The notes under the pieces: generated by a model | Told to the model about the DNA's origin: nothing | What the model saw: the letters and a program-made list of their open reading frames with translations, nothing else | The model's database searches: none | DNA from: Streptomyces lydicus | Lineage (GTDB): Bacteria; Actinomycetota; Actinomycetes; Streptomycetales; Streptomycetaceae | Direction of reading: 5' to 3' | DNA length: 64,000 bases | Assembly: GCF_001729485.1 (NCBI RefSeq) | Contig: NZ_CP017157.1 | Location: 186,001-250,000, forward strand | In this document: positions 10,051 through 23,285 of the stretch, one piece after another | Numbering within the stretch: the first letter of the stretch is position 1 | Layout: each line of letters opens with the position of its first letter | Position numbers and translations under genes: made by a program

Positions 10051-10350
10051 ATGGCCGGCGGCAACATCAAGATCAGCCCGGACGAGATGCGGGAGGCGTC
10101 GACCTGGCTGCAGAACCAGAAGGAACTGATGCAGCAGAGCCTCCACGAGGCCAACACCAAGATGGACGAGATGGTCGAGGCCGCCTACGCCACCCCCGGC
10201 TCCGAGAGCAAGTTCCGTCCGTACTGGGAGGAGTACAAGAACGGCACGGAGAAGGCGATCGAGGGTCTGCAGGGCGTCAGTGAGTTCATCAAGCAGGTCG
10301 CCGACGCGTTCGTCGACACCGACGACCAGACGGCCGGCTCCATCGGCTGA
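10051..10350 (+). CDS. WXG100-like type VII secretion protein
   Basis: 99 residues, the standard size of an ESAT-6/WXG100 helical hairpin, from ATG 10051 with GAGAGAAGGAA upstream. Two amphipathic helices (about 10-42 and 50-85) flank a turn around YATPGSESKFRPYWEEYKNG; the position of the WxG motif reads W-E-E, so the Gly is replaced. It is first in a four-gene run with a second WXG100-like protein, a 241-residue protein and an Rhs toxin. It may be a secreted structural substrate, or a targeting partner for the toxin's helical N-terminus, like Lap proteins for LXG toxins. Confidence 0.8.
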   Translation: MAGGNIKISPDEMREASTWLQNQKELMQQSLHEANTKMDEMVEAAYATPGSESKFRPYWEEYKNGTEKAIEGLQGVSEFIKQVADAFVDTDDQTAGSIG

Positions 10351-10363
10351 CGCGCCCCGCACC

Positions 10364-10400
10364 GTCCGGCCCCGCTCTCCTTGTGAGGGCGGGGCCGGAC
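10364..10400 (+). terminator. hairpin between the two WXG100-like genes
   Basis: 12-bp stem GTCCGGCCCCGC (10364-10375) / GCGGGGCCGGAC (10389-10400), 14 bp after the first gene's stop. It could attenuate transcription and make the first protein more abundant than the downstream ones. Confidence 0.55.
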
Positions 10401-10425
10401 CGCCGGAGCAGGAGGGGAGACATCG

Positions 10426-10734
10426 ATGGGCCGCATCAGCGTGCCTGTGCAGGACCTGAAGGACACGGTCAAGGAGCTCCAGAACATCGGGGATCTGCTC
10501 GGGGACTCCGCGACGCTCTTCCACGCCGCGGGCGACCGGAAGGACTTCAAGAGCTTCGCCGGCGACAGCAAACTCGCGCACGCCCTCGACGAGTTCGACA
10601 GGGCGTGGGGCGAGGGTCACGAGCGGGTCCGCGACAACGTGAAGACGTTCTCCGACAACGTGGACACGATCGCTGAGAACTTCACGCAGACGGACGACGA
10701 CAGCGCCAAGGCGCTGGAGAAGAAGGACGCGTGA
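10426..10734 (+). CDS. second WXG100-like protein
   Basis: 102 residues from ATG 10426, with GGAGGGGAGAC upstream. It is charged and helical, with a central turn at RAWGEGHERV where WXG100 proteins have W-x-G; the exact W-x-G spacing is not kept. N- and C-terminal helices (VQDLKDTVKELQNIGDLLGD; VRDNVKTFSDNVDTIAENF) fit the ESAT-6-like hairpin. The tail has no clear YxxxD/E export signal. It lies 75 bp after the first WXG100-like gene and 31 bp before the next, which suggests one operon. It probably pairs with the first protein or with the toxin. Confidence 0.75.
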   Translation: MGRISVPVQDLKDTVKELQNIGDLLGDSATLFHAAGDRKDFKSFAGDSKLAHALDEFDRAWGEGHERVRDNVKTFSDNVDTIAENFTQTDDDSAKALEKKDA

Positions 10735-10765
10735 CGGGAGACGTCGCGCGGAAGGGAAAGGCGTC

Positions 10766-11491
10766 ATGACGCAACCGGTCACGGAGCGGCCCGAGGCCGC
10801 GCCCGCGGGCTACACCCTGCGGTTCCCCGACTCCTGGTGGCAGCTCGACCTCGACCCGAGCACCCGGGACGCGTCGATCCGGCGCCGTATCGAGGACCAG
10901 GTGAAGCAGGCTCCGCAGCTCTCCCGCGAGCAGGTGGACGCGCTGATCCGCACCACCCGGCGCACCGCCCGCGAGGCGCATGCGCAGGGCGCGCTGCGGG
11001 CGTCGGGGATGCTCCGGATTCTGCGCGCGGGCAGTGGCCCCCTGGTGCTCAGCGCCACGATGGTCGTGCTCCGGATCTCCGTCCCCGAGGAGCAGTCGGA
11101 GGATCTGGCGGACCTCGTCGTCGCGACCGCCATGCAGCTCGGCACCGAGGCGGAAGGCAGCGGACTGCCGCCCGGCGAGGTGGAGGTGGTGGAACTGCCC
11201 GAGGTCGGAGCGGCCGGGCGGATCACCAGGATCGAGGAAGTGGACTACCAGGGGACACGGGTGCCCACCGCGGTGCGGCACACCCTGATCCCGGTGCCGA
11301 ACAGCCGGGACTACCTGGTGCTCGCCAGCTCCACCCCCAACGTGGATCTGGCGGAGCAGTTCTACGAGGTCTTCGACGCGATCGCGGAGTCGTTCCGCTT
11401 CGAGGACCCGGCCGGCACGTCCGGCGCAGTGGACCCGGCGGCGGAAGCGGCCGGTGGAGGCCCCATGGGCGAAGCAGACAAGGGAAAGTGA
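10766..11491 (+). CDS. T7SS-locus protein, family not recognised
   Basis: 241 residues from ATG 10766 with GGAAGGGAAAG upstream. There is no signal peptide or membrane helix. An early motif GYTLRFPDSWWQLDLDPSTR precedes a helical segment (about 35-75) and then alternating strands and helices to about 215; the tail is Ala/Gly-rich and disordered. I do not recognise a family. Its fixed place between WXG100-like genes and the toxin, and a 10-bp gap to the toxin, suggest a cytosolic chaperone or adaptor for toxin export, comparable in position to EspG. This is inferred from context only. Confidence 0.6.
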   Translation: MTQPVTERPEAAPAGYTLRFPDSWWQLDLDPSTRDASIRRRIEDQVKQAPQLSREQVDALIRTTRRTAREAHAQGALRASGMLRILRAGSGPLVLSATMVVLRISVPEEQSEDLADLVVATAMQLGTEAEGSGLPPGEVEVVELPEVGAAGRITRIEEVDYQGTRVPTAVRHTLIPVPNSRDYLVLASSTPNVDLAEQFYEVFDAIAESFRFEDPAGTSGAVDPAAEAAGGGPMGEADKGK

Positions 11492-11501
11492 GGTCGCGGC
11501 C

Positions 11502-14500
11502 ATGGCGCGTCCAGCAGTGTCCGATTGGGAATCGGTCTTCGGGTTCGACGACGACCCGACCCCGGGTGATCCGGAAGTACTCGGACAGCTCGCCCGCAGC
11601 TACCGTTCCGTAGCCGATAACGCGGGCGACGCCCTGCCCCTCGTCTCCGGCCTGGAGAACAAACAGGTCGGCGAGGGAAAGACCATGGAGAAGCTCCGGG
11701 ACAAGCTGGGCGACCTGGCCAACCAGGTGCGCAAGCTGCACAGTTCCTACGACCTGGCGGCCGGCGCCCTGGACACGTATGTGCATTCACTGCGTGATCA
11801 GCAGCGGAACGCCGACAACGCGCTGGAGAAGGGGCGCGAGGCCAAGGAGCGGCTGGCGTCGGCCACCGAGGTGGTGCGTGCGGCCGGTGCCGACATCAGC
11901 CGGCTGGACGGGGTCACCCACCCGCCGGACGACACCGAGGCGCGGGCGAGCACCCGGCGCGCGCTGGACGAGGCCCACAACAAGCAGTCCACGGCGCAGT
12001 CGCACGCCGATGACGCGCAGGCGGACCTCGACGCGGCCCGTCTGCTGGCGGAGGACGCGCGGCAGGTGCGTGAGGAGGACGCCTCCACGGCGGCGCAGAA
12101 GCTGGACGACGCGCGGAGCGAGTCGGTCGACGGCTACAGCCTGTGGGACAAGATCAAGAAGGCGTTGAGTACGGCCTTCGGCATCATCAGCGCGGTGCTG
12201 GGCGTGCTGGCGATGCTGATACCCGGCCTGCAGGGCATCGGCATCGCCCTGACGATCGGCAGCATCGTGGCCGGCGCGGTGTCGCTGGGCATCAACCTGT
12301 CCGTGATGGCGGAAACCGGCGAGTGGAACGTACTGGAGATCGTGCTCGGCGTCGTGGGCCTGGTCGGGGGCGGGGCCGCGGCCCTCAAGGGCCTCGGGGG
12401 GATCGGTTCGGCCCTCAAGGGGGTCAAGCCCACCTCGGTCAAGCCGAACAACATCCGCGTCGTCAGCCGGGAACCGAAGAACCGCAAATGCGAGGGCGAC
12501 CCGGTCGACGTGGCCAGCGGCGAAATGCTGCTGGCGCAGACCGATGTGTCGCTGCCCGGCGTGCTGCCGCTGGTGGTCTCCCGTACGCATCTCTCCACGT
12601 ACCGCTACGGCCAGTTCTTCGGCCCGTCCTGGGCCTCCCCCCTGGACGCGCGCCTCGAAGTGGACGACCGGGGACGCGTGTCGTGGGCCCGCGAGGACGG
12701 CTCGATCCTGACCTACCCGGGCCTTCCCGCCGCCGGCTCCGACGATGCGGTGTGGCCCGAGGAGGGCCCCCGCCTGCCGCTGACCTGCGCGGGAACCGGT
12801 GCCGAGGGGGAGGTCAGCTACCTCGTCTCCGATCCGCACACCGGCCTCGTCCGCACCTTCGCGGACCACCCCGACGACGACAGCGGCCTGTACTGGCTGA
12901 CCCGGTGGCACGACCGCAACGACAACGAAGTCGTGGTGTCCCGGCTGGCGGACGGCACCCCGACCGCGCTGGTCCACTCCGGCGGCTACCACGTCGACGT
13001 CCACTGCACCGCCGGCCTGCTGACCGGGCTGTCGCTCGCCACGCCCGAGGGCCCGGTCGAGCTCACGTCCTACCAGCACGACGCGGACGGCAACCTCACG
13101 CACGTGGTGAACTCCACCGGCAAACCGCTGGTGTTCGGCTACGACGACCGGTCCCGGATCACCTCCTGGACGGACCGGAACAACTCCACCTACCGCTACG
13201 TCTACGACGACGACAACCGCGTCACGGAGACCATCGGCCCCGAGGGCTACCTCTCCTCCCGCTGGACCTACGACCCTGCCGAGCGCCGGACGCACTACAC
13301 CGACGCCTGCGGCGCCACGACCGTCTTCCAGCTCAACGACCTGTACCAGGTCATCGGCGAGACCGACCCCCTGGGCCACACCACCACCTCCGAGTGGGAC
13401 CGCTACGACAACCTCCTGTCCCGCACCGACGCCCTCGGCCACACCGTCCGGTACGAGTACGACTTGGCGCACAACCCCACTGCCGTCCAGCTCCCGGACG
13501 GCAGCCGGTCCACGGCGACGTACAACGGACTGAACCTCCCGCTCTCCTCGACCGGTTACGACGGGACGACGTGGCGCTGCGAGTACGACGAGCGGGGCAA
13601 TCTCACCGCCATGACCGCCCCGGACGGGGGCGCCATCAGGTTCACCCGCGACCGCGCGGGTGCCATCGCGACCGCAACCGACGCGTCGGGCGCGGCAGCC
13701 ACGTATGACAACGACGACGCCGGTCTGCCCCTCTCCGTCACCGATGCCTCCGGCGGAACCGCCCTGCTCGAACGCGACGCGTTCGGCCGCCCCACCGCCG
13801 TCACCGACCCACTGGGTGCGATCACCCGCACGGTATATACCGTCGAAGGCCGCGTAGCGGAGCGCACATACCCCGACGGCCGTACCGAGCACCTCACCTG
13901 GGACGGCGAGGGCAACTGCCTCACGTCCACCAACCCCGCAGGGGCCACCACCCGCTTCGAGTACACGCATTTCGACCGGCTCGCGGCGCGTACCGAGCCC
14001 GACGGCGCCCGGTCCACCTTCGTCTACGACGCCGAGCTCCGCCTCATCCGGGTCACCAACCCGCAGGGCCTGCACTGGGATTACACCTACGACCGCGTCG
14101 GCCGTCTCCTCAAGGAGGCCGACTTCGACAACCGCGAAATCCGTTATGCCCACGACGCGGCGGGGCGGGTCACCTCGCGCACGACGCCGCTCGGCCAGGA
14201 GATCAGCTACACGTACAACGAACTCGGCAAGCTGACGTCCAAGGACGCGGCCGGGGTGCGGACCGACTACACCTATGACGCCGCCGGCGCTCTCCTCCGC
14301 GCGGTGTCCCCCAGCTCCACGCTCGCTTTCGAGCGGGACATCATGGGGAGCCTGCTGTCGGAAACCGTCGACGGACGCACCACCCGCTACACCTACGACG
14401 TCATGGGGCGCCGCACCTCCCGCACCACGCCCACCGGCGCGTACACCGAACTCGCCTACGACGGGGCGGGTCACCGCAGCGCCCTGACGACCGACGGTCA

Positions 14501-16010
14501 CCGCATGGAGTTCACCCACGATCTCCGCGGCCATGAGCTGTCCCGCACCCTGGGCACGGCCGCCTCGCCGGTCGCCGTGACCACAGCCTGGGACATGGCC
14601 GGTCGCCCCGTCGCACAGCGGCTGACCACCCCGGGCGGGGACCTCCGGGACCGCCACTACGCGTACCGGGCGGACAACTACGTCACCGCCATCACCGACG
14701 AGGTGACGGGGACGAGCAGGCAGATGGAACTCGACGGGGCGGGGCGCCCGTTGACGGTCACCGCCGAGGGCTGGACCGAGTCCTACGCCTACGACAAGGC
14801 AGGCAACCAGATCGAGGCCACCTGGCCCGACAAGGCGCCGCGCACCGAGGCCCGCGGCTCCCGGACCTACACCGACACCCGTCTGCTCTCCGCCGGCGCG
14901 GTCCGGTACGAATACGACGAGGGGGGCCGCACGGTGCTGCGGCAGAAGCGCCGTCTGTCGAAGAAGCCCGACACCTGGCGCTACGAGTGGGACGCCGAGG
15001 ACCACCTCGTCGCCTGCGTCACGCCCGACGGCACCCGGTGGCACTACACCTACGACCCGATGGGCCGCCGCACCGCCAAGTACCGCATGGCGGAGGACGG
15101 CGTCACGGCGGCCGAAGCGGTGTACTTCACCTGGGACGAAACGCGGCTCGCCGAGCAGACAGACGGCACCACCGGCGTCATACTCACCTGGGACCACGAC
15201 GGCCACCGCCCCCTCACGCAGCTGGAGCGCAAGCCGAGGAGCCAGGACGAGTTCGACTCCCGCTTCTTCGCCATGGTCACCGACCTCGTCGGCACCCCCA
15301 CCGAACTCGTCGACGAGCAGGGCGCCATCGCCTGGCGCTCCCGCACCACCCTGTGGGGCCTCACCACACGCAACCGGGACGCGATCGCCCACACGCCGCT
15401 GCGTTTCCCCGGGCAGTACGCGGACCCCGAAACGGGCCTGCACTACAACTACTTCCGGCACTACGACCCCGAGACCGCCCGTTACACGACGCCGGACCCG
15501 CTCGGCCTCGACCCCGCCCCCAACCCCCGTACCTATCCACACAATCCCCACACGTGGTTCGACGCCCTCGGGCTCGCGCCGTCGTGCCAAGAGTTGGAGG
15601 ACCTTTCCAAGGATGTGGCCAACGTGCTGCCCGAGGGGGGCCGGGGGTACCAGACGGTCGCCGCGGTCGTTGACAGAAATGGACAGATCTGGGTGTCCGG
15701 CACGAGTAATAGCAAATTGACGCAGGCGCAGAAGGACCTCGTCACGGCTCGGGGAGCCAAGTACCTGGACAACGACCAGTACATTTCTCCGACGCAGATG
15801 AAGGGCCATGCGGAGGAGAACCTTCTGGAATGGCTCGACAGGGTGGGCCTGAAACCCTCGCACGGCGCAGCCAGCCGCAATATTTGCGACGAGTATTGCG
15901 AACCTCTTATCAGGGCCTTCGGCGGTAAGGTGGACGGACCCATACACTCCCGAGGCCGTGGCACGAAGATGCGACATTTCCAATTCCCGGCGCCGCCGGA
16001 CACGCCATAG
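11502..16010 (+). CDS. Rhs/YD-repeat polymorphic toxin with T7SS-type N-terminus and deaminase-like tip
   Basis: 1502 residues from ATG 11502. Residues 1-215 are helical coiled-coil and begin like the 'putative T7SS-secreted' signal domain (DDPTPGDPEVLGQLARSYRS). A hydrophobic segment covers about 218-310 (two to three helices). The DUF6531 entry domain starts at about 331 (GDPVDVASGEMLLAQTDV). YD repeats fill about 540-1240 (YTYDxxGR units), and the Rhs core ends at about 1300-1345 (FPGQYADPETGLHYNYFRHY, then DPLGL). The tip, about 1360-1502, is variable, with lower GC. It carries KGHAEENLLEWL (about 1434) and NICDEYC (about 1460), the HAE and Cys-pair zinc motifs of the nucleic-acid deaminase fold. 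It is probably an intercellular toxin; the following gene is the expected immunity gene. Confidence 0.85.
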   Translation: MARPAVSDWESVFGFDDDPTPGDPEVLGQLARSYRSVADNAGDALPLVSGLENKQVGEGKTMEKLRDKLGDLANQVRKLHSSYDLAAGALDTYVHSLRDQQRNADNALEKGREAKERLASATEVVRAAGADISRLDGVTHPPDDTEARASTRRALDEAHNKQSTAQSHADDAQADLDAARLLAEDARQVREEDASTAAQKLDDARSESVDGYSLWDKIKKALSTAFGIISAVLGVLAMLIPGLQGIGIALTIGSIVAGAVSLGINLSVMAETGEWNVLEIVLGVVGLVGGGAAALKGLGGIGSALKGVKPTSVKPNNIRVVSREPKNRKCEGDPVDVASGEMLLAQTDVSLPGVLPLVVSRTHLSTYRYGQFFGPSWASPLDARLEVDDRGRVSWAREDGSILTYPGLPAAGSDDAVWPEEGPRLPLTCAGTGAEGEVSYLVSDPHTGLVRTFADHPDDDSGLYWLTRWHDRNDNEVVVSRLADGTPTALVHSGGYHVDVHCTAGLLTGLSLATPEGPVELTSYQHDADGNLTHVVNSTGKPLVFGYDDRSRITSWTDRNNSTYRYVYDDDNRVTETIGPEGYLSSRWTYDPAERRTHYTDACGATTVFQLNDLYQVIGETDPLGHTTTSEWDRYDNLLSRTDALGHTVRYEYDLAHNPTAVQLPDGSRSTATYNGLNLPLSSTGYDGTTWRCEYDERGNLTAMTAPDGGAIRFTRDRAGAIATATDASGAAATYDNDDAGLPLSVTDASGGTALLERDAFGRPTAVTDPLGAITRTVYTVEGRVAERTYPDGRTEHLTWDGEGNCLTSTNPAGATTRFEYTHFDRLAARTEPDGARSTFVYDAELRLIRVTNPQGLHWDYTYDRVGRLLKEADFDNREIRYAHDAAGRVTSRTTPLGQEISYTYNELGKLTSKDAAGVRTDYTYDAAGALLRAVSPSSTLAFERDIMGSLLSETVDGRTTRYTYDVMGRRTSRTTPTGAYTELAYDGAGHRSALTTDGHRMEFTHDLRGHELSRTLGTAASPVAVTTAWDMAGRPVAQRLTTPGGDLRDRHYAYRADNYVTAITDEVTGTSRQMELDGAGRPLTVTAEGWTESYAYDKAGNQIEATWPDKAPRTEARGSRTYTDTRLLSAGAVRYEYDEGGRTVLRQKRRLSKKPDTWRYEWDAEDHLVACVTPDGTRWHYTYDPMGRRTAKYRMAEDGVTAAEAVYFTWDETRLAEQTDGTTGVILTWDHDGHRPLTQLERKPRSQDEFDSRFFAMVTDLVGTPTELVDEQGAIAWRSRTTLWGLTTRNRDAIAHTPLRFPGQYADPETGLHYNYFRHYDPETARYTTPDPLGLDPAPNPRTYPHNPHTWFDALGLAPSCQELEDLSKDVANVLPEGGRGYQTVAAVVDRNGQIWVSGTSNSKLTQAQKDLVTARGAKYLDNDQYISPTQMKGHAEENLLEWLDRVGLKPSHGAASRNICDEYCEPLIRAFGGKVDGPIHSRGRGTKMRHFQFPAPPDTP

Positions 16011-16045
16011 CGCTCGTAGCACCCCACGAGAAACGGGAAGCACAC

Positions 16046-17068
16046 ATGCCCGAAGAAATGGTCCTGCAACTCATCAGCGAGGAGTCCGTCGAAGGAGTCG
16101 CGGAAGCCTGGGGACGTCATGAGGGACGGCAGTTCCGGGACGGGGCGTTGCGGCTGGTGACACGCGTCGCGGACCTGGTGGTTGTCAGGACGGTGCGTTC
16201 GTCCGCCCAGCCGCCGCTCTTTTCCGCCGACAGCCTCTCCGTACCGCTGGCGGACCTCGCCGAGTGCCATTACGTGACACCGACCAGGGGTGGCTTCGCA
16301 GTGTGCCGGCACGACTCGGTGTCGTACCACTCCCGTAGCGGTGCGGTCGAATGGAGCTTCCGGCACTTTCCCTGGGACGACGACCCCATCGGCAGCGGAG
16401 CCTGTGCGGAAACCCCGGACGGTCGCCACCTGCTCGTCGTCGTTCCCGGAACTCCCGACGATGCCGGGGAATATCCAGGCGACCGCTGCGTTCTCCTCGA
16501 ATCGGGAACCGGGCAGGTGATCGACGAGACGCTTCTCCCGTCGTTCTCCGCCTCCTACACCCTGGATGTTCCCTTTCGGCAGGTCTCGACATTTTTCCTG
16601 TCCGCAGGGCAGGGCCAGGACGGTGCGTATTCCTGGAAGGTGGATATTGCGGAGGGTCGTCTCCACCTCACGGAGCTCGCATCGGGCATGGAGCGTGTGA
16701 CGGGCGTCCGGCGCAACAGAGTTCTGGTGCAGGCTGTTGGAGGCAGCTGGTTGCAGGTCCGGAGTGCTGTCCCTGACGGAACTCCGCACATCGAAGCCGA
16801 GACGAAGCCGGAGGATGTGCGGGCCGAGCAGGAGTCGTACCTCACCGGTGACTCCGGATTTGTCGATGACTCCCACGTCATTGCCGCTGTGGGCGACGAA
16901 TGGTGGTCCGAGGAAACCGAGCACTTCCTGCTCGACGCGGCGGACCTGACCGTTCGCCAGCGGGTGCGGTACCCGTTCCCCGTCGGCCTGGCTCCGAAAG
17001 CCCTCGGTGACGGTACGTGGATCACCTCGAACGGAACTGACGTGCAGCGCTGGCGTATCGCGCAGTAA
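16046..17068 (+). CDS. candidate immunity protein for the Rhs tip
   Basis: 340 residues from ATG 16046, 35 bp after the toxin stop, with GGGAAG upstream. No signal peptide or membrane helix, so it is cytosolic as an immunity protein should be. It is rich in beta strands with recurring 'DxxTGxVxxxxxL' turns (RCVLLESGTGQVIDETLLP; AADLTVRQRVRYPFP), suggesting a beta-propeller or beta-sandwich. I recognise no family. Base composition is less GC-biased than its neighbours, matching the toxin tip, so the two may have been acquired together. A perfect 13-bp hairpin follows. The immunity role is inferred from position only. Confidence 0.6.
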   Translation: MPEEMVLQLISEESVEGVAEAWGRHEGRQFRDGALRLVTRVADLVVVRTVRSSAQPPLFSADSLSVPLADLAECHYVTPTRGGFAVCRHDSVSYHSRSGAVEWSFRHFPWDDDPIGSGACAETPDGRHLLVVVPGTPDDAGEYPGDRCVLLESGTGQVIDETLLPSFSASYTLDVPFRQVSTFFLSAGQGQDGAYSWKVDIAEGRLHLTELASGMERVTGVRRNRVLVQAVGGSWLQVRSAVPDGTPHIEAETKPEDVRAEQESYLTGDSGFVDDSHVIAAVGDEWWSEETEHFLLDAADLTVRQRVRYPFPVGLAPKALGDGTWITSNGTDVQRWRIAQ

Positions 17069-17083
17069 TGAACGTGCCTGCAC

Positions 17084-17118
17084 GAGGGCTCCCGCCGATC
17101 CCACCGGCGGGAGCCCTC
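17084..17118. terminator. strong bidirectional terminator
   Basis: Perfect 13-bp stem GAGGGCTCCCGCC (17084-17096) / GGCGGGAGCCCTC (17106-17118) with a 9-nt loop, between the convergent immunity and ATPase genes. Confidence 0.85.
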
Positions 17119-17130
17119 TGTGCCGGGACC

Positions 17131-20100
17131 TCAGCTCCCGGCTGCCGGGAGCACCGTCTCCGGGACCTGGACGGTGCGCAGCACGCCGTCGCCCAGGTGC
17201 AGGATCGCCCGGCCCGGGCGGGTCGCGCCGAGCCGGCTGCGGGGCACCTTGACGCCGATCAGTTCGCCGTCGCTCATGTTCTGCGGCTTCAGCAGCAGCC
17301 CGCACCGGTTGCGGCGGGCCTCGGTGTGCCAGCCGGAGAACCCGGAGGAGAGCCGGTCGGTCTGCCCGGCGATCACCAGGCCCCGGCCGGTCTCGGCACC
17401 GGACTTCGCGATCGGCGTGAGGACGGACTCGGCCTTCGACTTCAGCAGCAGGTCGGCGTCGTCCAGGATCACCACGGCCCCCTGCGGCGCGGACGCCAGC
17501 GCCTGCTCCAGCGCCGTCGGGTCGATGTCGGCCTCGTCGAAGACCGCGAGGACCCCGGGCCGTCCGGCGAGCCGGCGCAACGGCGACCTGGCGGGCGCGC
17601 CGACGACGACCGGCGTCCCGACCGACAGCAGCGACAGTGCCAGCGTCGCCAGCACCGTGCTGCGTCCCGAGCGGGCCGGGCCCGCGACGAGGAAGGTCGG
17701 TGTGACGGAGAAGTCCGGCCCGAACGCGGTGAGTTCGTCACCGCCGACACCGGTCAGCGCCCAGTGTGCGGACGGCAGCGGCCGCGGCACGAGCCGGGCC
17801 GCCTCCTCCCAGGTGAGCCGGTCCGGCAGGATGTCGACGCGGAACGGGCGGGTGGCGGCCGGCAGATGGGCCGCCCGGTCACGGCAGTACTCGGCGATCT
17901 GCTGGAGCGCCACGGCCTGCGCCTGGCCCTCCGGGTTGTCCGTGAGGAGCGCGATCTGCACCTCGGCCTTGTCGGCGGCACGGAACGCGCGGCCCGGGGG
18001 GATCTCGTCGGGCACGTTGCGCTGGGTGATGCCGATCATGCCGTACTCGGACTTCTCGTTCAGCTTCAGCACGAGCTTGTCCTCGGTGGAGCCGTTGACC
18101 CGGCTGGAGAACAGCGCCCGGTCACCGGTCATCACCAGGTGGATGCCGACGCTCGCGCCGTCCCGGAGCAGGGTCAGCACCGAGTTCAGCAGGTTGCCGG
18201 CGTCGTACTCGCCGAGCTGCTTGTCGAAGACCTCCCACCGGTCGATGAACAGCACGATGTGCGGCGGCCGTTCGTCCTCCGGCAGCGCGCGGCGGAGTTC
18301 CGGCAGGTCGGCGCTGCCGCGGGCGGCGAGCATCTCCTGGCGCCGGGTCAGCTCCTCCGTCAGCCGGGCGAGCAGCCGGGCCACCCGGTCGGGCTGGGTG
18401 CGCTGGGTGATGGCCCCGCAGTGCGGCAGCCCCTCGATGGGCAGCAGCGCGCCGTTGCCGCAGTCGATGCCGTACATGTGCAGCCGGTCCGGCCCATGGG
18501 CGAAGGCCAGGGTGCCGGCGATGGTGCGCAGCGTCTGCGACCTGCCCTGCCGGGGCGAGCCGATGATGTGCAGGTGCCCGAGCGTCGCCGGGTCGATCAC
18601 CAGGGGCAGCCTGGCCTGTTGTGCGGGCAGGTCCACCACGCCGTACGCGACCGGCGGGAGGTCGTAGTCCGAGGGCGGGGGCGGCGGCAGTTCGCCGGTG
18701 ACCAGGACCTCGGGCAGCGGCGGGAGCCAGGGGCTGTGCTGGGCGGGGATGCCCATCTCCCGGTCCGCCTCGCGGATCGCCGTGACGAGCCCGGTGAGGT
18801 CGGTCTCCACCTCGGCGGGCGCGGCCGCGGCGCGGGGCCGCGCCGGAAGCGGCTCGCCGAGCCGCTCCCAGCCGAGCGCCACCGCCCAGGGCGCCGGCAG
18901 CGAGGTCGCCGCGGCACCGGGCCGGCGGCCGCCGACCCGTCCGGACTGGAACGGCACCAGGGAGTTCTGCCCCAGGCGCACATAGGCGCGGCCGGGGGTG
19001 CCCTGCGAGATCCCGGCGGCCTCCGGGGAGTTGAGGACGTCCGTGCTCTCGCCGGCGTCCGTCACCCGCAGCGCGATGCGCAGGTTGGTGTTGGCGCGGA
19101 TCTCCGAGGACACGACGCCGCTGGGGCGCTGCGTCGCCAGGATCAGGTGGATACCGAGGCTGCGGCCCCGCTGGGCGATGTTGACCAGGCCCTTCACGAA
19201 GTCCGGCAGGTCGCGCACCATCGAGGCGAACTCGTCGATGACGATGAGCAGCCGGGGCATCGGCTCGCGGCCCGCCGGGTTGCGTTCCAGCAGGTCGACG
19301 TAGTCCTCGATGTCCTTGGCGCCGGCCGCGGCGAGGATGTGCTCCCGCCGGGTGAGTTCCGCGGTCAGCGACACCAGGGCCCGCTCGACGAGGTGGGCGT
19401 CGAGGTCGGTGACCATGCCGACGGTGTGCGGCAGGTCCACGCAGTCCTTGAACGCGGAGCCGCCCTTGTAGTCGACGAGGACGAACGTCATCGCGTCCGG
19501 ACGGTTGGCCACCGCGAGCGAGGCGACCAGCGTCTGGAGGAGTTCGGACTTGCCGGAGCCGGTGGTGCCGGCGACCAGCCCGTGCGGGCCGTCGCGGCGC
19601 AGGTCCAGGTAGAACGGGCCGTCCAGGGAGACGCCGACGGCCGCCCGGGTCGAGCGCCCCCCGGCCTGCCAGCGCGCCCGGATACCGGCGGCCTGCGGCG
19701 GGTCGAGGGCGAGCACGTCCAGCAGCCGCGCGGAGCCGGGAAGCACCGCGGCCTCCTCGTCGCCGCCGCCCGAATCGCGCATCGGGCCCATCGCCCGGGC
19801 CAGCGAACGGCACCAGTCCAGGGACACCGCGTCGGGCCGGATGCCCCCGACGGTGCCCCTCCCGGAGCGTCCCACCCGCACCGTTCCGCCGGGCTCCTCG
19901 ACGACGACGGCGTGGCACTCCTCGGGCAGCAGCCGCTCCTCGGAGTCCAGGCACACCGCGCGGATGCCGACGGCCGGCCCGTCGCGCAGGATCTGCGCCA
20001 CGCCGGGCAGCGAACGCAGCCTGCGGGCCCCGTCGAGGACGACCAGCACATCGGGGCCGGGGGCCCGGTCGCGCCGGTCCGCCCGTCCGGCGCGCTCGAC

Positions 20101-21522
20101 GATCAGCGCGGTCAGTTCGGCCACCCGCCGGGCGCAGGTCTCCGTGCCGTAGCCGATGCTGGCCGGCGTGTCGCCGGACCTCTTGCGCACATGCGGCAGC
20201 CAGCGCAGCCAGGACCAGCCGTCCCGGCCCGGGCCGCCGGTCGTCAGCAGGTGGATCTGCAGGTCGCGGGGGCTGTGCAGGACGGCGGCCTGGGCGACCG
20301 CCCAGCGCGCCACGGCGCGCGCGGCCGGGCCCTCGCCGGCGATGCCCAGCACGTCGTGCTCGCGCAGCGGCACGGTCACCGGGACGTCGTAAGCGGTCCA
20401 CGGGTCCTGGCGGCGGTGCTCGTCCTTCGTCGGGTCGTGGAGGACCACGTCGGAGGGCAGGTCGGCGGTGCCGATGCGCAGTTCCAGGAAGTCGGCGTCC
20501 GAGGTGCGGCGCTCCCACAGGCGGCGCCGGGGGCCGACGGCGGTCAGGACGACCTCGGCCGGGTCCGGAAAGCCGCGGCGCCGGGCGGTGCGTTCGGCCG
20601 CCAGGGCCTGCTCCGCGTCGCCCTCGATGCGCGCCTTCTTCTCCTCGTACTCGGCGACACTGCTGGAGTGGGACTGGCGTCCGCTGCGCCGGCTCATCAG
20701 GAAGTTGCCGACGACCACGACCGGGGAGAGCAGCCCGAACAGCAGCATCGACATGCGGCCGAACACCAGCGCACCGGCCACCGCCATCACCACCGGCGCG
20801 GCCGCGGTGATCCACGGGAGCGGCCGGGCGGCCGGCGCCGCGGGCGGGGTGGGCAGGGTGAACCGGGTCGCGGTCCCGGCCGGCCGCAGCCGCGGCGGCC
20901 GGTTGTAGTCCCAGCCGGTGCCGTCCTCCGACGGCTGCACGGCCGCGTCCGGCTTCTGCGGGAGGGCGAGTTCGAGCAGGCAGTCGCCGACGAGGAGCTG
21001 CGCGCCGGCCGGCCAGGCGGTCGCCTCGGCGAGGTCCACGCGGTCCAGCTGGAGGGTGCCGTCGGCCGGCGCGGACGCGTCGGGCGCGATGCGGCAGCGG
21101 CCTCCGGGGCCCACCGCCAGCACGGCGAACGGGCGGTCCGGTACGGCGCGCAGCACCTGGGCGGTCCCGCCGTGGGCCAGCCCGATCCGGTACTCGCCCA
21201 TGTCGAGCCGGTGCACGGCGCCCGCGCCGGCCCCGCCGACGGCACGGACCTCCACCAGCCCGTCCGGTTCGGCCGACGCGGTGCCGGCCGGGCGGCCCAA
21301 GCCCACGATGGCGGCGTGGTGGAGCGGCGCGTCCCGCAGCCGCATGTCGGCCGGCAGCAGCCGGTCGCCGGCGTAAAGGCCGAGGCCCTCCGGGGGCCGG
21401 TGAACGCCTCCCGCCCCGGCCAGCGCCTCCGCGACGGCGCTCACGGGCGTGTCGGGGTCGGCGTCGAGGTGGACGTCGAACGCGTCACCGCCCCCCTCGA
21501 CCACGGTCAACATCAACGACAC
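17131..21522 (-). CDS. EssC-like FtsK/SpoIIIE ATPase of type VII secretion
   Basis: 1463 residues from GTG 21522 (GGAGG 8 nt upstream); ATG 21513 is the alternative. Order: a ubiquitin-like N-terminal domain (about 1-80), an FHA-like region (about 90-190), two membrane helices (about 228-270), then RRRLWERRTSDADFLELRIG typical of EccC/EssC, and three FtsK-type ATPase modules. Module 1 has a canonical Walker A (GTTGSGKS, about 650) and Walker B (LLIVIDEFASM). Modules 2 (GSPRQGRS, about 987) and 3 (GPARSGRS, about 1277) have Arg in place of the Walker Lys, so they are degenerate. It should power export of the WXG100-like proteins and the Rhs toxin. No eccB/D/E or mycP is nearby. Confidence 0.88.
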   Translation of the reverse strand: MSLMLTVVEGGGDAFDVHLDADPDTPVSAVAEALAGAGGVHRPPEGLGLYAGDRLLPADMRLRDAPLHHAAIVGLGRPAGTASAEPDGLVEVRAVGGAGAGAVHRLDMGEYRIGLAHGGTAQVLRAVPDRPFAVLAVGPGGRCRIAPDASAPADGTLQLDRVDLAEATAWPAGAQLLVGDCLLELALPQKPDAAVQPSEDGTGWDYNRPPRLRPAGTATRFTLPTPPAAPAARPLPWITAAAPVVMAVAGALVFGRMSMLLFGLLSPVVVVGNFLMSRRSGRQSHSSSVAEYEEKKARIEGDAEQALAAERTARRRGFPDPAEVVLTAVGPRRRLWERRTSDADFLELRIGTADLPSDVVLHDPTKDEHRRQDPWTAYDVPVTVPLREHDVLGIAGEGPAARAVARWAVAQAAVLHSPRDLQIHLLTTGGPGRDGWSWLRWLPHVRKRSGDTPASIGYGTETCARRVAELTALIVERAGRADRRDRAPGPDVLVVLDGARRLRSLPGVAQILRDGPAVGIRAVCLDSEERLLPEECHAVVVEEPGGTVRVGRSGRGTVGGIRPDAVSLDWCRSLARAMGPMRDSGGGDEEAAVLPGSARLLDVLALDPPQAAGIRARWQAGGRSTRAAVGVSLDGPFYLDLRRDGPHGLVAGTTGSGKSELLQTLVASLAVANRPDAMTFVLVDYKGGSAFKDCVDLPHTVGMVTDLDAHLVERALVSLTAELTRREHILAAAGAKDIEDYVDLLERNPAGREPMPRLLIVIDEFASMVRDLPDFVKGLVNIAQRGRSLGIHLILATQRPSGVVSSEIRANTNLRIALRVTDAGESTDVLNSPEAAGISQGTPGRAYVRLGQNSLVPFQSGRVGGRRPGAAATSLPAPWAVALGWERLGEPLPARPRAAAAPAEVETDLTGLVTAIREADREMGIPAQHSPWLPPLPEVLVTGELPPPPPSDYDLPPVAYGVVDLPAQQARLPLVIDPATLGHLHIIGSPRQGRSQTLRTIAGTLAFAHGPDRLHMYGIDCGNGALLPIEGLPHCGAITQRTQPDRVARLLARLTEELTRRQEMLAARGSADLPELRRALPEDERPPHIVLFIDRWEVFDKQLGEYDAGNLLNSVLTLLRDGASVGIHLVMTGDRALFSSRVNGSTEDKLVLKLNEKSEYGMIGITQRNVPDEIPPGRAFRAADKAEVQIALLTDNPEGQAQAVALQQIAEYCRDRAAHLPAATRPFRVDILPDRLTWEEAARLVPRPLPSAHWALTGVGGDELTAFGPDFSVTPTFLVAGPARSGRSTVLATLALSLLSVGTPVVVGAPARSPLRRLAGRPGVLAVFDEADIDPTALEQALASAPQGAVVILDDADLLLKSKAESVLTPIAKSGAETGRGLVIAGQTDRLSSGFSGWHTEARRNRCGLLLKPQNMSDGELIGVKVPRSRLGATRPGRAILHLGDGVLRTVQVPETVLPAAGS

Positions 21523-21755
21523 GAAAACGTCCTCCAGCCGGCGTGAATGGGGGGCCTCGGCAGCCGCGTTCGGCGGCTCCCGTGCCACTGACGGGACCTA
21601 CGGACCGCGTCCGCGGATGGTTCACCGGTGCGGCGGTGAACCATTCCCGGACGGGCCCCGTAGTGGCCATCGGGTGCACGGCGTCACGACGGTGCCGCCC
21701 CCGCTTCCGCCCGTCCCGGCCCCGCCGCCGGGGCGTCCCGACAAGGAGTCAGAAG

Positions 21756-22697
21756 ATGATCTGGTACGTCCTGGCCGTGGTGCTGGGGCTGGCGCTGATC
21801 GGGGCGGTGACCGCGCTGATCGTCACCGAGTGGCGGTCCCGCCCGCCGAAGCCCGTCGCCGCCTCGGCCGCCGTCATGGGGCGGGAGGCGCTGGACGTGG
21901 TCAACGCGGGTCTGCGCCGGCTGACGGGCGAGTGCCTGCGCTCCGGCCGGTCGCTGCCCGACCTGTACGCCGTCGTCTACTCCGAGGAGCGGCTCGGACT
22001 GCTGCTGGCCGGCGCGGAGCAGAAGGCCCCCGCGCCCTGGACCGTCGAGGCCGACGGCGAGCGCTGGACGATCTCGCCCGACGACCTGCACCGCCCCGGC
22101 CCGGAGGGCGAACCGGCCCTGCCGTACGCGCTGACGGTGACGGTAGGCCTGGACGGCCCCGACCGGGTGCTGGTCGACCTCTCCCGGGCGGCGGGGCCCG
22201 TCTCGGTGGCGGGTCCGGACGAGGAGGTGCGCAGCCTGGTGCGGGCCGTCGTCGCCGAGGCGCTCTCCAGCCCGGTGGGAGCGCTCGCCGAGGTCACCCT
22301 GGTGGGATCGCTGGCCGCTGGCGGGCTCCTCTCCGGCGACGAGGCGCGGACCTCGCGGCTGCACACCGCGGCCAGCCTGGAGGAGGCGTTCGCCAAGGTG
22401 GCTGCGGCGAGCACGGGGGCGCCGGCGCCCGGATCGCCCGACGTCACCCAGATCTTCCGGCTGATCGAGGGCAGCAGCCGGATCGCCGTCCAGGGCGAGG
22501 CGCCGCACCTGTTCGTCGTGGACGCCTCACAGCTCCCCGGGCGGGAGGGGGCGCTGGACGGCCTGCGGCGCGGGGACGCGCTGCTGGTGGTCGGCGAGGC
22601 GCCCACGGGGTGGCGCTGGCGTACCGGTGCGGGGGGATCGCTGGACACCGGGCCGCTCGGTCTGGAGATCACCCGGCACGCGGGGCGTTTCGGGTGA
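21756..22697 (+). CDS. membrane-anchored T7SS-locus protein
   Basis: 313 residues from ATG 21756, with AAGGAG at 21743-21748. One N-terminal membrane helix (about 2-23, MIWYVLAVVLGLALIGAVTA) is followed by a basic stop-transfer, then a soluble alpha/beta region. I do not recognise a family. It is read divergently from the EssC-like gene over a shared 233-bp region, so the two are probably co-regulated. By place and topology it could be an inner-membrane accessory of the secretion machine. The upstream shared frame up to 21543 lacks coding character and is not included. Confidence 0.65.
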   Translation: MIWYVLAVVLGLALIGAVTALIVTEWRSRPPKPVAASAAVMGREALDVVNAGLRRLTGECLRSGRSLPDLYAVVYSEERLGLLLAGAEQKAPAPWTVEADGERWTISPDDLHRPGPEGEPALPYALTVTVGLDGPDRVLVDLSRAAGPVSVAGPDEEVRSLVRAVVAEALSSPVGALAEVTLVGSLAAGGLLSGDEARTSRLHTAASLEEAFAKVAAASTGAPAPGSPDVTQIFRLIEGSSRIAVQGEAPHLFVVDASQLPGREGALDGLRRGDALLVVGEAPTGWRWRTGAGGSLDTGPLGLEITRHAGRFG

Positions 22698-22700
22698 GCG

Positions 22701-23285
22701 TCATCCGGCCTCGCGGTCCAGGCCGCCCCCGTACAGCCCGCGGCTGTGCAGCGCCTCGCGCAGGGCGCGGGCGGCGTAGTACGTCCGCGACTTGACCGTG
22801 CCCGGCGGGACGCCGAGGACCTTGGCCGTCTGGTTGACGCTGCGGCCCAGGTAGTGCACGTGCAGCAGGACCTCGCGCTGCGCCGGCCGCAGGTCCCGCA
22901 ACGCGTCGGTGAGCACCTGGGAGGTGAGGATGTGGTCCACCCCGTCGGACACCGGCAGGTGGGCGAGTTCGGGGTCACCGGTCTCCGGTGGTCTGGCCTG
23001 GCGGGCCCGGTGGCCGTCGATGACGAGATTGCGCAGCACGGTGAACAGCCAGGGCCGCACCGAATCCGCGGTCGGGTCGAGTTCCCCGGCGTGCCGCCAG
23101 GCGCGTATCGCGACTTCCTGGAGGACGTCCTCGGCGCGGTGCCAGTCGCCCTCCAGCCGCCGTGCGGCGAACTGCAGTAACGCGCTGCCGTGGAAGTGGT
23201 AGAGCGCTCTCAGGAACTCGTCGGGGCGGGGTTCCGTGGCGCGCGGGCCGGATATCCGGTCTTGGGTCGAAGCGCTGGCCGACAA
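22701..23285 (-). CDS. ECF-type RNA polymerase sigma factor
   Basis: 194 residues starting at TTG 23285, preceded by GAGGAAAGG; no ATG or GTG gives a full-length region 2. Region 2 spans about 25-95 (ARRLEGDWHRAEDVLQEVAI, RPWLFTVLRNLVIDGHRAR). Region 4 spans about 120-175 (LRDLRPAQREVLLHVHYLG then VNQTAKVLGVPPGTVKSRTY). The spacing and region 2/4 wording are those of Streptomyces SigL-like ECF factors. No anti-sigma gene with a zinc motif is visible. It ends 4 bp from the convergent T7SS-locus gene and lies 140 bp downstream of the LamG gene, which might be in the same unit. Confidence 0.88.
   Translation of the reverse strand: MSASASTQDRISGPRATEPRPDEFLRALYHFHGSALLQFAARRLEGDWHRAEDVLQEVAIRAWRHAGELDPTADSVRPWLFTVLRNLVIDGHRARQARPPETGDPELAHLPVSDGVDHILTSQVLTDALRDLRPAQREVLLHVHYLGRSVNQTAKVLGVPPGTVKSRTYYAARALREALHSRGLYGGGLDREAG

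Follow-up and report, generated by a model that had tools for sequence, protein, structure and literature searches.

How can a type VII secretion system (T7SS) export a membrane-spanning protein without losing it into the membrane of the producing cell? To our knowledge, this is an open question, and it is raised by a locus of Streptomyces lydicus that encodes two small hairpin proteins (wxg1 and wxg2), a protein of 241 residues (p241), an Rhs polymorphic toxin with membrane-like segments, a candidate immunity protein and an EssC-like ATPase. The locus lies in the window, i.e., the whole stretch of 64,000 nucleotides that was analysed, which comprises bases 186001-250000 of the 8.20 Mb single-contig genome; positions are given relative to its first base. 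We propose that the locus represents a distinct T7SS, seen here only in Streptomyces, whose cargo needs both a hairpin partner and an Eag-like chaperone, and we consider this probable, although by no wide measure. More tentatively, and with a probability that we place slightly below even, the T7SS would have its own Eag-like chaperones of the Mog1/PsbP fold, which shield the membrane segments of substrates that are not yet exported; the Streptomyces lineage in question would need neither EccB/EccD nor EssB. The type VI secretion system (T6SS) and the T7SS would then have arrived independently at one solution for the loading of Rhs toxins that span the membrane. The proposal is based on synteny, co-divergence, the predicted fold of p241, its linkage to membrane-like segments, its retention beside short substrates, an orphan cargo cassette and the presence of the motor N-domain in nearly all genomes that match p241 and in all sampled genomes without EccB.

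Linkage of p241 to membrane-like segments

The gene for p241 (10766..11491, plus strand) is followed on the same strand by the toxin gene (11502..16010), which encodes 1502 residues. The toxin begins with a T7SS-type helical N-domain (approximately residues 1-215, 11502..12146, plus strand), in which residues 57-206 match the T7SS_signal family PF21725 with 21.8 bits (cut-off 27); three of the five related substrates scanned exceed this cut-off (28.1, 30.2 and 42.8), and the other two reach 20.0 and 25.4. The N-domain is followed by hydrophobic membrane-like segments at approximately residues 235-315 (12204..12446, plus strand, limits set by eye), where three segments have a mean Kyte-Doolittle value of at least 1.6 over 19 residues. 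The same threshold, applied to the stretch after the helical domain, defines membrane-like segments throughout.

Proteins with PF21725 occur in 82 of 101 Streptomyces genomes. The tally of their neighbours comprises the 20 highest-scoring PF21725 loci with flanks of several kb and two lower-scoring sets of 20, the first of which was hand-chosen from the matches under the top group, while the second follows the ranking nearly without gaps; 30 loci had flanks of 1.5 kb on each side, and only the 20 that were taken again with larger flanks are included. None of the 20 top-scoring loci has a membrane-like segment, a p241-family gene or a wxg2-type gene. The first lower-scoring set contains six substrates without segments, none of which has a p241-family gene (0/6), and 14 with segments, ten of which have one after iteration of the p241 profile; the profile was retrained on this set, and these ten are therefore not independent. 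In the second set, all 20 substrates carry segments and 14 have a p241-family gene on the same strand in the stretch examined, 12 of which were already matched by the profile before iteration. Taken together, a p241-family gene accompanies 24/34 segment-bearing substrates (three of the 34 are barely over the threshold: L142 with 1.62, L150 with 1.63 and L188 with 1.64) versus 0/26 substrates without segments. Genome counts are uncorrected for kinship, for which collapsing the substrates by identity is a partial remedy; with a cluster counted as positive if any member is positive, the figures are 23/28 versus 0/23 at 90% identity, 20/22 versus 0/14 at 70% and 12/13 versus 0/4 at 50%. Thus, p241 goes with the membrane-like segments of its substrate.

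An earlier note on this DNA, made from the sequence alone, had left the 241-residue protein unrecognised. It is a third cargo partner, and structure modelling predicts for it the Mog1/PsbP fold of the T6SS Eag chaperones. An EspG/EsaE-like fold is absent among the fold matches listed (VIA), which excludes nothing. The closest relatives of p241 are database entries assigned to S. sioyaensis and S. platensis (94-95% identity).

Two further cargo cassettes are present in the genome of the window strain, L142 at 7.05 Mb and L143 at 7.25 Mb, both distant from the motor; each has a wxg2-type hairpin, a substrate with a membrane-like segment and a p241-family gene, which was recognised after profile iteration. 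The same genome encodes at 0.81 Mb (L180) a top-scoring PF21725 protein of 1573 residues from the match on, with no membrane-like segments and neither a wxg2-type nor a p241-family gene.

Conservation of the locus and its two modules

All genes that the earlier note had named, i.e., those for the two hairpins, p241, the Rhs protein, a protein of 340 residues and the ATPase, were confirmed, and the strand of the last was corrected. The first five lie on the plus strand with intergenic gaps of 10-75 bases; the ATPase gene is convergent with them on the minus strand and is therefore outside their operon. A survey of synteny, which the note had proposed, was carried out by scanning genome contigs with a 37-row p241 alignment and matching the genes by tblastn. 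It revealed 18 related loci, every record of which is titled Streptomyces, and since the arrangement recurs in all these loci, it is not due to chance. Both wxg2 and the substrate N-domain were matched in 18/18 loci, wxg1 in 17/18 and the motor beside the cargo in 15/18; the stretches of L017 and L019 stop before the expected place of the motor. L024 is an orphan cargo cassette (wxg2, p241 and an Rhs substrate) with neither wxg1 nor motor in the stretch examined, and its genome also contains the complete short-form locus L029 on a different contig. As assumed previously, the substrate is an Rhs toxin in the window, and Rhs fusions are found in 8/18 related loci (L014-L017, L019-L021 and L024); however, the other ten loci encode instead a short form without Rhs core of 414-557 residues, whose gene and the motor gene have their ends close together. 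L019 and L021 contain two substrate N-domains each, in tandem. In the draft loci L018, L026 and L028, the motor gene is split over two frames, which could reflect frameshifts or sequencing errors.

The first hairpin, wxg1 (99 residues, 10051..10350, plus strand), is an EsxA-like member of the WXG100 family (PF06013, 41 bits, over cut-off). The second, wxg2 (102 residues, 10426..10734, plus strand), is putatively helical judging from its WXG100-like similarity and stays under the cut-offs of PF06013 (19.8 bits) and DUF6317 (22.9 bits). A literal W-x-G motif is found in neither hairpin (0/20 wxg1 and 0/21 wxg2 relatives), and a [YF]-x-x-x-[DE] motif is present near the C-terminus of both in all relatives (20/20 wxg1 and all 21 wxg2).

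Pairwise distances were compared for the 14 distinct loci that contain wxg1, wxg2, p241 and a substrate as well as 75% or more of the motor. The distances of p241 correlate with those of the substrate N-domain (r 0.96) and those of wxg1 with those of the motor (r 0.94). After removal of the motor distance, the partial correlations are 0.96 for p241 and substrate, 0.86 for wxg2 and substrate and 0.80 for wxg2 and p241, with 0/2000 permutations as high in each case, and -0.02 and -0.06 for wxg1 with substrate and p241, respectively. An earlier run with 15 loci counted L020 and the identical sequence L092 (from G059, which is the genome of L020) separately and gave 0.93 for wxg1 and motor, 0.02 for wxg1 and substrate and 0.87 for wxg2 and substrate; without L030, the most divergent locus, the values are 0.96 for p241 and substrate, 0.86 for wxg2 and substrate and 0.19 for wxg1 and substrate. 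As wxg1 and wxg2 are immediate neighbours on one strand, adjacency alone does not explain this pattern: wxg1 goes with the motor and wxg2 with the cargo. The locus consists of two modules, a machine module with wxg1, the ATPase and probably a flanking membrane protein and sigma factor, and a cargo module with wxg2, p241 and the substrate. Flanked by two conserved machine genes, the cargo cassette was either exchanged or diverged. With wxg2 adjoining p241 and the substrate in 18/18 loci, the toxin has a small partner encoded beside it and specific to it. The previous suggestion that two helical proteins help to load the toxin can be retained for wxg2, which resembles a Lap partner; wxg1, however, follows the ATPase, and p241 is a third partner.

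The motor and its relation to T7SSa

The ATPase (17131..21588, minus strand) is an EssC-like motor with three ATPase domains, which match PF01580 in three stretches (208.6 bits). With a motor of the FtsK/SpoIIIE type that contains several ATPase domains and a WXG100-family protein, wxg1, the locus has the general hallmarks of a T7SS. The motor stays under the cut-offs of the models for EssC (TIGR03928, 569.1 vs. 778.4), EccCa (TIGR03924, 419.2 vs. 509.15) and EccCb (TIGR03925, 324.5 vs. 346.55). Four relatives score alike, except that L103 is just over the EccCb cut-off (348.2 vs. 346.55), and the EccC of the same genome is far over those of EccCa and EccCb, with 933 and 871. EssB/YukC (PF10140) was matched in 0/17 Streptomyces genomes, including that of the window, whereas the B. 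subtilis control gave a match. No FHA domain was matched on the motor of the window or of L030; in four other relatives, the FHA-like PF16697 stays under its cut-off of 33.2 with a best score of 31.5 (L103). No full-length EssC from Bacillota is among the matches listed (60 of 629 plasmid records).

The earlier note had reported eccB, eccD, eccE and mycP as absent. Neither eccB nor eccD is present in the locus (eccE and mycP were never searched for), but both are found on the same chromosome: the only EccB match lies near 6.36 Mb, EccD matches lie near 6.34 Mb and, weakly, near 0.45 Mb, and a typical eccC accompanies eccB and eccD near 6.34-6.36 Mb. For INDEPENDENCE from T7SSa, the same 150 Streptomyces genomes were surveyed for each component at E <= 1e-3: 43 genomes match p241 (window-type model), 66 the N-domain of the motor and 136 EccB. 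The motor N-domain, whose query was silent on the EccC of the window's own genome (one match in G000), is present in 41/43 genomes that match p241; in the remaining two, the p241 match itself is marginal. Through sister motors, every one of the 14 genomes without EccB matches the motor N-domain (G050 marginally), 13/14 match p241, and 10/14 have no EccD match and one a weak one. The 11 genomes without EccB within the PF21725 sample all carry PF21725 substrates, with one to nine each. Independence from T7SSa is supported for this kind of locus, not for the window's copy; the locus had been described as self-contained, which agrees with the sister motors in 14/14 eccB-less genomes but has no such support in the window's own clade.

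Proposed export pathway and alternative explanations

The substrate would be composed of a helical T7SS targeting domain, membrane-like segments and, in the window strain, an Rhs cage with a C-terminal toxin, which would be neutralised by the 340-residue protein. We infer that wxg2 pairs with the helical domain in a Lap-like manner and that, like an Eag chaperone in T6SS, p241 covers the membrane-like segments while the substrate is still cytoplasmic, so that the substrate stays soluble and does not insert into the membrane of the producer. The ATPase would take up the substrate complex and export it, and outside the cell, the membrane-like segments may promote passage of the toxin domain through the membrane of the target.

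Several observations weigh against this pathway. The Mog1/PsbP fold is not confined to chaperones and occurs in LpqN, PsbP and immunity proteins of the T6SS as well. A search for sequence homology of p241 to Eag proteins or to a solved chain yielded nothing convincing: there is no match to DUF1795 (PF08786) or to any other Pfam or NCBIfam family at E <= 1, and the best matches to solved chains have E values of 0.86 and 0.92. In the first lower-scoring set, only 7/14 segment-bearing substrates had a p241-family gene before profile iteration, compared to ten afterwards, and the second set of 20 includes a locus, L192, that overlaps the training locus L094. For ten of the 34 substrates with segments, the stretch examined contains no p241-family gene, which weakens a strict one-to-one rule. 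Seven of these are long Rhs genes that also have no wxg2-type gene (L158, L160, L161, L182, L187, L189 and L201); of the others, L197 is a shorter gene with neither partner, and L146 and L196 lie at contig ends, as does L187. L158, L160, L161, L182, L189 and L201 are orphan toxins and may borrow partners encoded elsewhere. Furthermore, three of the 14 genomes without EccB have EccD over the cut-off, and the window's own clade is confined to genomes with EccB (19/19 distinct genomes: G000, G019 and 17/17 others); self-containment is therefore unproven for the window's copy, and export by T7SSa has to be reckoned with.

This last point speaks for an alternative in which the cargo is exported by the ordinary T7SSa of the chromosome, which encodes EccB, EccC and EccD, with the EssC-like ATPase doing something else or only helping. 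The cargo of L024, which has no ATPase in the stretch examined, fits this explanation as well. However, the eccB-less genomes match the motor N-domain and p241 nearly without exception and mostly have no EccD match at all, and the ATPase lies beside the cargo in 15/18 loci, with two of the other three stretches stopping short; we regard export by T7SSa as unlikely, although it has a real chance of being correct. Another possibility concerns the role of the short form, which might be a pore-forming toxin like the glycine-zipper LXG toxins reported in the accessible parts of PMC10434224 and PMC12744356; p241 would then protect the producer by holding it, and the Rhs fusion would be a derived double weapon. 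Membrane-like segments are present in 31/31 p241-linked proteins, a count that lies outside the tally and is biased, as the selecting profile spans this region and L092 repeats L020. In the ten short-form loci, there is little room for an immunity gene between the substrate and the ATPase gene, which speaks against a pore former, and we consider this explanation rather improbable.

The shared fold also allows p241 to be seen as an immunity or accessory protein, like Tsi3 and TplEi in T6SS. As p241 persists where the substrate has neither Rhs core nor toxin domain (10/18) and follows the substrate N-domain, and as the gene linked to the C-terminal toxin is another one, immunity was rejected as the main explanation for p241, and such a role is very unlikely. 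The preferred explanation, i.e., a chaperone-assisted T7SS, accommodates the short substrates and the orphan cargo of L024.

Comparison with known secretion systems

Statements on published systems in this section refer to the accessible parts of the cited papers. T7SSb LXG toxins with Lap partners (PMC9600955) have been described (PMC11217815), and, as proposed in the earlier note, the layout of the locus resembles theirs: a T7SS-type ATPase is conserved beside the Rhs toxin and the hairpin partner is Lap-like. Common to both are a helical N-domain, an adjacent small helical partner, a variable C-terminal toxin, an immunity gene and an EssC-like motor, whereas the locus differs in the predicted Mog1/PsbP-fold partner, the Rhs core, the Streptomyces host, the lack of a genomic EssB match and an ATPase under the EssC cut-off. 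The same paper defines T7SSc to T7SSj and reports Rhs and LXG candidates and Lap-like partners for them. These systems share with the locus a non-EccC motor with hairpins, such candidates and such partners; the main text of the paper contains no occurrence of Streptomyces, takes T7SSd only from other Actinomycetota and names no Mog1/PsbP component. By description, the Streptomyces host and the predicted Mog1/PsbP-fold partner set the locus apart from T7SSc to T7SSj. The ESX system (T7SSa) of Streptomyces (PMC8401907) likewise has a motor of the FtsK type and hairpin proteins; unlike it, the locus misses the EccC cut-offs and has no eccB or eccD.

Eag chaperones act on the transmembrane segments of T6SS Rhs/prePAAR effectors (PMC7773334, whose main text does not contain 'type VII'). 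The predicted fold, the position of the gene beside the effector and membrane segments near the N-terminus of the effector are alike, but the locus has no sequence match to DUF1795, no PAAR domain (Pfam), a T7SS-type targeting domain and a Gram-positive host. PsbP/MOG1-like genes, which have the same predicted fold and the same genetic position as p241, adjoin T6SS toxins, and an adaptor role was proposed for them; they differ in having been reported for T6SS, and for T7SS, the ATPase and EsaC were named instead (PMC3482391). T7SS-linked actinobacterial toxins have also been described, among them an LXG alarmone synthetase from Amycolatopsis azurea that comes with a gene for a targeting factor, and some Streptomyces toxin genes were placed beside T7SS components (PMC12691689). 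Like the locus, the A. azurea system has an actinobacterial T7SS effector whose gene is accompanied by genes for a partner and for immunity; it differs in its toxin and in that no Eag-like partner is named. Among the titles listed from the openly licensed literature, none concerns a PsbP/MOG1 or Eag-like partner in T7SS.

If p241 is the answer to the question of how membrane-spanning proteins are exported, a chaperone fold known from T6SS is reused in a Gram-positive system, and p241 could serve as a marker in the search for T7SS effectors that cross membranes. For a genus known for ESX, the locus would furthermore mean an additional T7SS motor lineage, whose N-domain is matched in 66/150 Streptomyces genomes. 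The combination of an unusual motor, a giant toxin and a protein with the predicted fold of T6SS chaperones suggests that the loading problem may have similar solutions in two unrelated secretion systems.

Toxin domain, candidate immunity gene and flanking genes

The Rhs protein carries RHS repeats, DUF6531 and Rhs_assc_core, and its C-terminal domain (15591..16010, plus strand) is swapped between loci. Six of the C-terminal domains examined are unlike that of the window: Pfam assigns three to Endonuclea_NS_2, one to Tox-HNH-EHHH and one to AHH, all over the cut-offs, and one to YwqJ-deaminase under the cut-off. The window-type domain, which is shared by L016 and L017, matches no Pfam family up to E 10; three additional proteins that contain it were retrieved by a database search. 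HAE and C-x3-C are invariant in 7/7 aligned copies, which we take to be a deaminase-like motif. An assignment as YwqJ-type deaminase was unsupported by a comparison with L014, which leaves the motif as the reason to call the domain deaminase-like. The gene for the 340-residue protein (16046..17068, plus strand) lies 3' of the window-type toxin in 4/4 cases (window, L016, L017 and the second toxin of L019) and was not matched by tblastn in the other 15 loci. This linkage to one toxin type is the pattern expected of an immunity gene, and the product is a candidate immunity protein to the C-terminal toxin. Repeats and core, swapped C-terminal domains and the linked candidate immunity gene characterise the protein as an Rhs polymorphic toxin.

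Divergent from the ATPase gene lies the gene for the conserved membrane protein tm361 (approximately 21732..22697, plus strand, start not fixed), which was matched in 11/18 loci. It is followed by a gene for an extracytoplasmic function-type sigma factor (22701..23285, minus strand; Sigma70 r2 and r4 over cut-off), matched in 8/18 loci; many stretches stop short of both. The two probably belong to the machine module. The model of tm361 is of low confidence (pLDDT 59), and its best Foldseek match is EccC (4nh0, E 4.9e-5). The idea that tm361 is a truncated motor was dropped: the fold hint is of low confidence only, RecA-type folds tie with the EccC DUF domain, and no similarity emerged when profiles were compared with five parts of the ATPase. 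A tm361-like domain (53 bits) also occurs in the middle of a protein of more than 900 residues near an orphan cargo cassette (L098:1-2901 and L100:16719-19499); in L098, the copy compared with Pfam, the C-terminus is BTAD-like under the cut-off.

In a sister clade (L103:14882-19501, L105:15095-19501 and L108:2-4001), an EssC-like gene and a hairpin gene adjoin long repetitive open frames, which comprise 1540 codons in L103 and 1469 in L105, running off the stretch, and 621 and 828 codons in two frames in L108. None of the usual substrates gave a match at these three loci, and the frames possibly encode a giant T7SS-exported protein.

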